In this document: one piece after another, positions 23,645-25,955 of the stretch
How positions within the stretch are numbered: position 1 is the stretch's first letter
How the letters are laid out: every line of letters starts with the position of its first letter
Notes under the pieces: model-generated
Told to the model about the DNA's origin: nothing
Database searches by the model: none
What the model saw: only the letters and a program-made list of their open reading frames with translations
DNA from: Pseudomonadales bacterium
GTDB taxonomy: Bacteria; Pseudomonadota; Gammaproteobacteria; Pseudomonadales; Azotimanducaceae
Direction of reading: 5' to 3'
Assembly (NCBI GenBank): GCA_019634925.1
Contig: JAHCAL010000002.1
Span: forward strand, 558,001-622,000
Length of the DNA stretch: 64,000 nt
Made by a program: the position numbers and the translations under genes

Positions 23645-24169
23645 ATGAGCACACCCGCCGTCACCACGATCGAGATCAGCAAGGACTACCTGCACTTCAA
23701 CTCCGCGCATTTCACGATTTTCTCGGCGACCGACCGCGAAGACCTGCACGGACACACGTTCTACGTCACTGCCAGCATCGACTGCACGGTCGGGGACGAT
23801 GGGCTCGCGTTCGACTACAACCTGGTCAAGACCCGCCTTAAGGCGCTCTGCGACGAACTCGACGAAAAGGTGCTGCTGCCCGAGCGCTCGCCCCACCTGA
23901 AGCTGCGCCGCGAGGCCGACTACCTGGTCGCGGAATTCGCAGCGGAACGGATTCCGTTTCTGCCCCGCGACGTGCTGACACTGCCGGTCCGCAACATCAC
24001 GGTCGAGGAACTGGCACCCTGGTTGCTCGCGCGGCTGCGCGCGGACCCGGCGATCGCGGGGCTGCGCCTCTCGCGCATGCTGATCCGCGTATCGTCCGGG
24101 CCGGGACAGTGGGCCGGCGCCGAGTGGCGCCACCCACCACGTAACGAATCGGAGCAACCACGACCGTGA
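23645..24169 (+). CDS. 6-pyruvoyl-tetrahydropterin synthase / QueD-family protein
   Basis: This T-fold enzyme of 174 residues acts on dihydroneopterin triphosphate or a related pterin. The zinc ligands are His22 (HFNSAH), His35 and His37 (DLHGHTF). The catalytic cysteine that QueD and classical PTPS carry shortly before the HGH motif is absent; acidic residues (ATDRED) stand there instead, as in PTPS-III-type enzymes that use glutamate. It overlaps the following SDR gene by four bases (GTGA). A PTPS-SDR pair resembles the last two steps of tetrahydrobiopterin synthesis; queuosine synthesis is the alternative, but no queC or queE is nearby. Confidence 0.85.
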   Translation: MSTPAVTTIEISKDYLHFNSAHFTIFSATDREDLHGHTFYVTASIDCTVGDDGLAFDYNLVKTRLKALCDELDEKVLLPERSPHLKLRREADYLVAEFAAERIPFLPRDVLTLPVRNITVEELAPWLLARLRADPAIAGLRLSRMLIRVSSGPGQWAGAEWRHPPRNESEQPRP

Positions 24170-24861
24170 ACCTGCTCGCCATCACCGGCGCGAGCGCCGG
24201 CATCGGGCTCGAGACCGCCCGCCGCTTTCGGGCCGAGGGCTTCGAGGTGGTCAATCTGTCGCGCCGCCCCTGTCCGCTGGACGGCGTGACGAATTTCACC
24301 TGCGACCTGGCCGATGCGGACGCGCTGGCGGCCGTGGCGCCACAACTCACGGCGCGTTTCGAGGCGGCGGCACGTGTCGTGCTCGTCCACAACGCGGCGC
24401 GCATGCGCAGCGATACCGCCGCCAGCACCGAAAACGCCGACTTCCGGGCCGTGCTGGAGGTCAACCTGATCGCGCCGAATGCGCTGAACCGCCTGGCCAT
24501 TCCGCACATGCAAAGCGGCTCGGCCATCGTCTACGTCGGCTCGACGCTCGCAGAAAAAGCCGTGCCGGGCAGCTTTTCCTACGTGGTGAGCAAGCACGCC
24601 ATGATCGGCATGATGCGCGCCACCTGCCAGGACCTGGCCGGCACGGGCATCCATACCGCGTGTATCTGTCCGGGCTTCACCGACACCGAGATGCTGCGCG
24701 AGCACGTGCCGGCGGACGCGATGGCCGCCGTCAGCGGGATGTCGGCGTTCGGCCGCCTGGTGCAGCCAACGGAGATTGCCGAGGCGATCTGGTGGAGCGC
24801 CGTGCATCCGGTGATCAACGGCGCGGTCATCCACACGAACCTGGGCCAGATCGAGCGCTGA
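24166..24861 (+). CDS. Short-chain dehydrogenase, possible pterin (sepiapterin-type) reductase
   Basis: This NAD(P)H-dependent SDR of 231 residues has the glycine-rich cofactor motif TGASAGIG at the N-terminus, the VHNAA motif, and the catalytic Ser-Tyr-Lys set (VGSTLA, then SYVVSKHA). The GTG start overlaps the PTPS stop (GTGA), so the two proteins are made together. The tight coupling suggests that it reduces the PTPS product, in the manner of sepiapterin reductase. This is inference from context, since SDR substrate cannot be read from sequence. The gene ends 13 bases before the 94-base palindrome. Confidence 0.85.
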   Translation: MNLLAITGASAGIGLETARRFRAEGFEVVNLSRRPCPLDGVTNFTCDLADADALAAVAPQLTARFEAAARVVLVHNAARMRSDTAASTENADFRAVLEVNLIAPNALNRLAIPHMQSGSAIVYVGSTLAEKAVPGSFSYVVSKHAMIGMMRATCQDLAGTGIHTACICPGFTDTEMLREHVPADAMAAVSGMSAFGRLVQPTEIAEAIWWSAVHPVINGAVIHTNLGQIER

Positions 24862-24873
24862 GGGGCCCGGAGG

Positions 24874-24967
24874 GACAGTTGGGGTCGGAGTAAAAAACTC
24901 CCGCGCAAGACCGGGTGCTTCGGCACCCGGTCTTGCGCGGGAGTTTTTTACTCCGACCCCAACTGTC
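24874..24967. repeat. Perfect 45-bp inverted repeat with TTCG loop
   Basis: Arms 24874-24918 and 24923-24967 are exactly complementary over 45 bases, with a 4-base TTCG loop. The arms contain AGTTGGGGTCGGAGTA, A6/T6 runs and a GC-rich apex. It lies between convergent genes and supplies the last codons and the TAA stop of the D-2-hydroxyacid dehydrogenase. The A/T runs beside the GC-rich stem make the apex work as an intrinsic terminator in both directions. The length and perfection suggest a REP/REPIN- or MITE-like element rather than an ordinary terminator. No second copy was noticed in the window. Confidence 0.9.
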
Positions 24968-25955
24968 GGCGATTCACGCAGTTCTCGAGCCGCCCTTCGC
25001 GCAGATAGGCAATCGCGACCGCCCCGCCCTTGAAACGCATGTCGTGGACGCTCTCGGGGGTAAAGAACGCCGAGTGCGGCGTCAGTACCAGCCGGTGATC
25101 GATCCACGGCTCGTCCGCCGCCCAGGCGCGGATCAGGGGGTGGTCGGGATCAGCGGGTTCGTCCGGCAGCACGTCGAGTCCGGCCGCCTGCACGTGACCC
25201 TCCCGCAACGCATCGTACAGCGCATCGAGATCGATCAGCGCGCCGCGGGCCGTATTGATCAGGATCAGCCCGGGCCTGGCATGCGCGAGCACCTCCCGCC
25301 CGATCAGCCCCCGCGTCTCGGTCGCCAGCGGCAGATGGAGGCTCACCACGTCGCTCGTGGCGAACAACTCCGTCAGTCCGTGCACACGCCGGATGCCCAG
25401 CGCGAGATCGCGCCCGTTCTCGAGCAGCGGGTCGTAGAACGCCACGTCCATGCCGAACGCCTTCGCCCGCAGCGCCGCCGCGGTGCCGATCCGGCCCAGT
25501 CCGACGATGCCGAAAGTACAGACCGAGAGCCGCCTGCCGAACGGACTCAGCGCCGGTCGCCAGTTGCCGCGCGGATCGGCCTTCAGCTCACGGGTGTGAA
25601 ACGTGATGCCCTTCATGAGCGAGAGCATCAGCGCAATGGCGTGATCCGCGACTTCCTGCGTGCCGTAGTCGGGCACGTTGCAGACCGGCACCCCGCGACT
25701 GCCCCAGTAGTCGAGATCGATCCGGTCGAACCCGACACTCGGCGTGACGAAAATCCGGCAGCGTCGCATGCGCTGGCGGAAGGGCTCGGGCACGTCGACG
25801 TACGAGACCACCGCGTCGCAATTGGTCCACTGATCATCGGTCACCGCGCCGAATCCGCTGCAGAATTCCGCGGTGCCGAAGCCGGCGAGGCTCGACCGTT
25901 CGATCTCGCCGCCGTCCGGCCAGCGCATGGCCGGCCATAGAACCCGAAAGCTCAT
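24948..25955 (-). CDS. D-2-hydroxyacid dehydrogenase (NAD-dependent)
   Basis: This cytoplasmic oxidoreductase of the phosphoglycerate-dehydrogenase/C-terminal-binding-protein family has 335 residues. The NAD fold shows GIVGLGRIGTAAALRAKAFG, the catalytic Arg lies in INTARGALID, the Glu in DVLPDEPADPDHP and the His in LTPHSAFFT. The ATG at 25955 follows GGGAGGGG. The last residues (RRQLGSE) and the stop codon are encoded inside the 94-base palindrome, so the native C-terminus may have been replaced. The substrate is not known. The 43-base gap to the LLM gene upstream suggests one transcript from folK. Confidence 0.88.
   Translation of the reverse strand: MSFRVLWPAMRWPDGGEIERSSLAGFGTAEFCSGFGAVTDDQWTNCDAVVSYVDVPEPFRQRMRRCRIFVTPSVGFDRIDLDYWGSRGVPVCNVPDYGTQEVADHAIALMLSLMKGITFHTRELKADPRGNWRPALSPFGRRLSVCTFGIVGLGRIGTAAALRAKAFGMDVAFYDPLLENGRDLALGIRRVHGLTELFATSDVVSLHLPLATETRGLIGREVLAHARPGLILINTARGALIDLDALYDALREGHVQAAGLDVLPDEPADPDHPLIRAWAADEPWIDHRLVLTPHSAFFTPESVHDMRFKGGAVAIAYLREGRLENCVNRRQLGSE

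Follow-up and report, generated by a model that had tools for sequence, protein, structure and literature searches.

The window analysed here, a stretch of 64,000 nucleotides of Pseudomonadales DNA, carries a perfect 94-bp palindrome (24874-24967) that belongs to a dispersed repeat family with nearly invariant inverted ends and copy-specific interiors. The mostly flawless hairpin interiors found in this genome (hereafter G000) are unusual. We consider it likely that the palindrome is a non-autonomous, MITE-like repeat, with TIRYT-type ends moved in trans, an interior symmetrised by template switching and a role as bidirectional terminator. We infer that the repeat is mobile. An inverted-repeat search and direct reading of the sequence bore out the original prediction of 45-base arms that pair without a mismatch (45/45 complementary) around a 4-nt TTCG loop between convergent genes. 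The features of the locus are as follows:

24166 to 24861, plus strand: short-chain dehydrogenase (SDR) gene, convergent flank
24874 to 24918, plus strand: left arm of the perfect inverted repeat (inverted-repeat search)
24874 to 24893, plus strand: left end unit GACAGTTGGGGTCGGAGTAA (own-genome motif count)
24881 to 24891, plus strand: core GGGGTCGGAGT of the left end unit, the dispersed repeat (own-genome motif count)
24892 to 24949, no strand: interior of the palindrome, consisting of an A6 tract, a 21-bp GC-rich stem, TTCG, the stem again and a T6 tract
24919 to 24922, no strand: TTCG loop (sequence and inverted-repeat search)
24923 to 24967, minus strand: right arm of the perfect inverted repeat (inverted-repeat search)
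24948 to 24967, minus strand: right end unit, inverted, which gives RQLGSE and a TAA stop to the dehydrogenase frame
24948 to 25928, minus strand: D-2-hydroxyacid dehydrogenase gene, convergent flank (start according to our own simple gene caller)

The palindrome is the sole perfect inverted repeat in the 64-kb window with an arm of at least 12 and a loop of 3-10, and a perfect 45-bp arm is not expected to arise by chance in a sequence of this length. Cells that lack sbcC and sbcD tolerate long palindromes more readily. Its predicted RNA fold reaches -97.6 kcal/mol, compared with a mean of -30.2 for shuffled sequences (z = -19.8), and none of 200 shuffles folded as well. It fills the space separating the two genes; the dehydrogenase stop codon lies at 24948-24950 on the minus strand, and the right arm overlaps the final dehydrogenase codons, so the palindrome is not wholly intergenic. 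No second copy of the interior was found anywhere in its own assembly, and a search of the palindrome against plasmids gave no match. A known RNA family was considered and rejected: the Rfam matches all remained under the gathering scores and were mostly to microRNA precursors, as expected of any perfect hairpin.

In their outer part, the arms carry the end of a repeat that is dispersed in the genome. Allowing one mismatch, the tip TTGGGGTCGGAGT has 127 matches in its own assembly (66 on one strand and 61 on the other) compared with one for a reversed-pattern control. The outer arm singled out by the original prediction, AGTTGGGGTCGGAGTA, is thus indeed repeated, although the repeated part is slightly longer and reaches approximately GACAGTTGGGGTCRGAGTAA. 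The exact motif TTGGGGTCRGAGT occurs 84 times in G000 and 0, 0, 1 and 0 times in four congeners, and was present in 15 of the 58 genomes searched, G000 included. Across the order, 61 of 390 genomes have a match, with high copy numbers only in G000 (84) and in a genome from another family, G291 (72); the next highest count is nine. Amplification of the end unit is therefore lineage-restricted. In the fetched stretches of G000, with six isolated one-mismatch matches left out, the units form 58 clusters. Inverted pairing of units (from +- and ++-- to ++++----) occurs in 24 of these, and the remainder consist of lone units or of tandem arrays, commonly with a period of 18 nt. Ends thus also occur unpartnered, which we count against our preferred explanation. 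The window palindrome would correspond to two inverted end units GACAGTTGGGGTCRGAGTAAAA around a short interior.

Between these ends, the interiors are unrelated from copy to copy. Among the 54 ends of G291, the columns of the core tip and of the A5 tract are 94-100% conserved, whereas 26 of its interiors (one of 25 nt was left out) gave a mean pairwise score of -0.06 over 325 pairs, against -0.09 for shuffled sequences. Five interior pairs exceeded the null threshold, three of them near neighbours. The G000 interiors (19 of 24 compared, the shorter five being left out) are likewise unrelated, except for one neighbouring pair in L092. Interior lengths centre on approximately 52 nt in both genomes, with a wider spread in G000; in G291, 25 of the 27 interiors are 44-57 nt long. 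Three neighbouring G291 copies (L219:1191, 3512 and 4194), one of them inverted, have a common but diverged interior and nearly identical tips, and in this group interiors therefore change faster than ends. Several sources for the interiors were tried and rejected. Capture from elsewhere in the genome was addressed with a 591-nt query joining 24 half-arms, which returned the elements themselves and short matches of chance length. For a phage origin, the G000 interiors had no match and the G291 interiors a single 27-nt match at chance level (E = 1). Host target DNA as the source was set aside because empty sites in congeners of G291, compared by eye, contain no interior-like sequence.

The two genomes differ in the symmetry of these interiors, which extends right to the loop in 15 of the 24 inverted elements of G000 and in none of the 27 in G291. 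The original prediction held that so long a perfect palindrome must be recent or maintained; this contrast suggests that interiors in the lineage of the window are made symmetric by some process or are under strong selection. All 17 perfect inverted repeats (arm at least 12, loop 3-10) in a 266-kb sample of G000 carry the end unit; 202 kb of this sample are unit flanks, and the unbiased 64-kb window contributes one repeat. We propose that the inverted end units would form a quasi-palindrome and that replication template switching may use one interior arm as the template for the other, ending in a perfect hairpin. Such perfecting of quasi-palindromes by template switching is documented in the accessible portions of two reports (PMC6649704; PMC8604942). 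The interior was probably symmetrised in place by this route; terminator selection, or an unknown hairpin-making insertion process, would leave similar sequences. Partly symmetric G000 copies occur, for example one with 16 pairs followed by a 20-nt loop, as expected of a precursor stage. In several further G000 copies the symmetry ends 1-2 bases beyond GGGG, though unit-like outer sequence is present on both sides; a switch back to the first template inside the conserved tip would leave such a boundary, and so would independent ends. In L224/L225, a related pair of G291 copies, the stem of one is longer than that of the other, owing to changes in both arms. With two separate expansions of one end, one symmetric and the other not, the origin of the palindromes becomes testable among close strains.

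A bolder possibility, which we regard as doubtful, is that the ends move without a body, every insertion acquiring a fresh interior of about the same length, and that a snap-back copy yields the perfect hairpin in the lineage of the window. If true, such a family would keep its ends constant while producing unrelated sequences between them, and an HUH-transposase repeat would have a so far unrecognised means of making sequence, and terminators, de novo. It appears unlikely that the elements are ordinary REPIN or TIR dimers whose interiors drift while selection keeps the pairing through compensatory point changes. Spacers that vary in sequence but little in length, and compensatory changes, do occur in REP dimers and REPINs, according to the sections available of two studies (PMC3733652; PMC3116915), but simple drift sits poorly with full symmetry in 15 of 24 G000 elements against 0 of 27 in G291. 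It also has to accommodate G291 interiors that are unrelated even though two congeners, about 86% and 79% identical in DNA, have empty sites; if the copies have a recent common source, their interiors have changed faster than ordinary drift would allow. These empty sites are L210 compared with G212 (about 86% identity) and L214 compared with G190 (about 79% and 76%), the two of 24 G291 loci that were informative in this opportunistic comparison, with contiguous flanks on both sides. Four others (L209, L224, L229 and L231) had congener matches that were rearranged, incomplete, limited to one side or located at contig ends.

Returning to the preferred reading, in which a MITE-like repeat is mobilised in trans and symmetrised by template switching, the ends were probably moved as single-stranded hairpins by a RAYT-like (TIRYT) HUH-tyrosine transposase. 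The likeness to RAYT-linked REP elements drawn in the original prediction holds in that the repeats are related to those bordering RAYT-like genes, and fails in that they lack a GTAG head and a small internal palindrome. In the parts of the study by Di Nocera et al (2013; PMC3733652) available to us, TIRYT genes are flanked by repeats with a common GGGGWSAS. The sequence GGGGTCAG fits this consensus, while about half of the inverted-element ends, including the tip of the window copy, read GGGGTCGG, with G for A at position 7 of GGGGWSAS, a departure that we count against the preferred reading. Y1_Tnp (PF01797) was found in 40 of the 58 genomes of the relatives search, and the motif was present at three of the 30 Y1_Tnp loci returned. 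Inverted tips enclose RAYT-like genes in G009 (L024) and G028 (L035), and a tip adjoins RAYT-like genes in G003 and G012. G291 has a RAYT-like gene (L225:4792-5463) that lies between directly oriented units; its protein reaches 68.4 of 80 bits with REP_Tyr_transpos, below the curated cut-off, and lies above the cut-off for Y1_Tnp. The proposed search for a RAYT gene in the window's own genome found none in the 87%-complete G000 assembly, either in a PF01797 profile search, which was positive in five of 14 control genomes, or with a five-sequence RAYT alignment at E <= 10, a search that had no positive control. This negative result weighs against the preferred reading; the transposase may be lost, unassembled or have acted earlier. 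Four G000 contigs (C2, C5, C6 and C9) start or stop at an end unit (L128, L106, L107 and L122), so assembly may fail at palindromes and miss a transposase gene.

Integron attC sites also combine conserved ends with a variable hairpin; we dropped this comparison because G000 copies are dispersed singly at gene ends. Rickettsia palindromic elements (RPE) are palindromic repeats that, like the G000 family, also insert in frame within protein-coding genes, although in-frame copies here are mostly tandem 18-nt units. Moreover, RPE end in CGTC, as given in the accessible part of one study (PMC3733652), a tag not found in the G000 unit. The closest likeness is to the GGGGWSAS TIRs of TIRYT genes as described in that part of the same study: GGGGTCAG fits their consensus, the tip borders RAYT-like genes in relatives, and singles, dimers and clusters are dispersed across G000. 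Unlike them, G000 has no transposase gene that we found, half of its tips read GGGGTCGG, its interiors are perfect, copy-specific palindromes, and some of its genes contain in-frame 18-nt tandem arrays. REPINs, in the portion of Bertels and Rainey (2011; PMC3116915) at hand, share the inverted doublet with a conserved end and a less conserved spacer, the hairpin, a mostly extragenic location and supposed movement by a RAYT in trans, and in G000 too the inverted doublet folds into a single predicted hairpin. However, compared with the classical REP or REPIN as presented there, the G000 unit has no GTAG (GT(A/G)G) head and no internal REP palindrome and is not self-complementary, and G000 spacers are unrelated between copies and most are fully symmetric. 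Many long, perfect and mutually unrelated inverted repeats in one lineage are also known from the coding palindromes of Nematomorpha mitochondria, for which the available part of the report proposes conversion or template switching (PMC6649704); no common tip or mobile-repeat character is described there, whereas symmetry in G000 is tied to one repeat end. Variable spacers are thus already known, of similar length in REP dimers (PMC3733652, in part) and less conserved than the ends in REPINs (PMC3116915, in part). What appears to be new are copy-specific perfect palindromes between invariant ends, of which we found no description in the open literature, that is, outside subscription journals and preprints. 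Literature searches for an 11-nt motif (20 of 78 matching papers listed) and a 12-nt motif (all eight matching papers) gave only titles from unrelated fields. The family ties the poorly studied GGGGWSAS TIR/TIRYT group, which only two papers of the literature searched mention by name, to the question of how REP-like doublets keep their ends while their spacers differ.

At the window locus, relatives present a different arrangement. In three congeners (G002, G003 and G004) a Vut_1-type gene, assigned by eye and by Pfam on the G003 protein alone, separates the SDR and dehydrogenase genes. By eye, distant relatives (G020, G016, G034 and G036) likewise have it there, in reversed orientation in G016 and G036 and with one further gene in G016. 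We take the Vut_1 family to be putative vitamin uptake transporters. G000 has no Vut_1 gene at this locus (24861-24948), and neither the three congeners nor the other relatives have such a hairpin between the two orthologous genes. The proposed search for empty sites in relatives therefore found the palindrome absent, but the place occupied by a Vut_1 gene. The dehydrogenase C-terminus reads ...NCVNSEFLVERR in G003 compared with NCVNRRQLGSE in G000. Even within the genus the genomes compared are far apart (the dehydrogenases are about 75% identical in amino acids), and older histories therefore cannot be reconstructed from them.

The interior of the window palindrome reads A-tract, GC stem, T-tract in both directions, and a GC-rich stem-loop followed by a T-tract downstream of a gene is the anatomy of an intrinsic (Rho-independent) terminator. 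From this anatomy, the palindrome is probably a bidirectional terminator. A scan of 20 kb around it gave 18 terminator-like rows, six of which are the palindrome itself, and it is the only long, T-tailed hairpin among them; the elements would give terminators to a genome where few others were seen. Strong bidirectional termination by the A-tract, GC stem and T-tract product would be a reason for copies at gene ends to be kept. The same anatomy and the suitable position could also mean that the convergent pair had an intrinsic terminator of its own and that end units were added to it later, a scenario we judge quite improbable: the 266 kb of G000 contain no perfect hairpin (arm at least 12) that lacks a unit, the G001 site orthologous to L123 has a different hairpin with no T-tract, and congeners carry a gene at the window locus instead. 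The congener locus, the unit in all perfect hairpins and the G001 site likewise led us to reject a native terminator as the whole story. A single copy with the same structure at orthologous loci had been named as the sign of such a terminator; we found many copies, and congeners without the element here.

The preferred MITE-like repeat also leaves marks on neighbouring genes. All 22 inverted elements outside genes are 3' of at least one gene, with none in divergent gaps; this placement uses our own simple gene caller, and its 16 'inside' calls include doubtful frames. Nine of the 58 G000 clusters supply the TAA stop codon of the neighbouring gene. By eye, translations give a protein end of NFLNK in G004 compared with NFLGSE in G000 at L120, and at L123 G000 differs from G001 beyond WRMV. 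At L090, three congeners have a gene of approximately 640 amino acids where G000 has the palindrome alone. The elements thus write protein C-termini as well as in-frame inserts. Amplification chimeras can produce perfect palindromes, and some contigs end at units, but we give almost no credence to an assembly or amplification artefact of inverted chimeras, given conserved, dispersed tips at gene ends, in-frame stop donation, units in frame inside several genes and the same tips in the independent genome G291.

Genes that we named from sequence reading as an MFS transporter, a histidine kinase, SelD and an MnmC-like gene contain in-frame tandem arrays of the 18-nt end unit (L099:6608-6672, L109:2081-2127, L114:2075-2103 and L096:2014-2060), which encode, for example, TVGVGV, SDSDP or TPTPTV. 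The MFS transporter is 24 amino acids longer at the array than in G002, equal to 4 x 18 nt, and SelD, the histidine kinase and the MnmC-like gene have extra length at the array in most alignments. Two further loci place genes between palindromes. At L092:1971-3116, a SecF-like gene lies between two palindromes, its upstream neighbour being HpcH-type aldolase-like and not secD (names from sequence reading), which suggests a possible rearrangement at the elements. At L112:5340-7870, two genes (about 340 and 442 amino acids) lie between two palindromes; the neighbouring convergent genes are adjacent in G002, and the two-gene block looks inserted.
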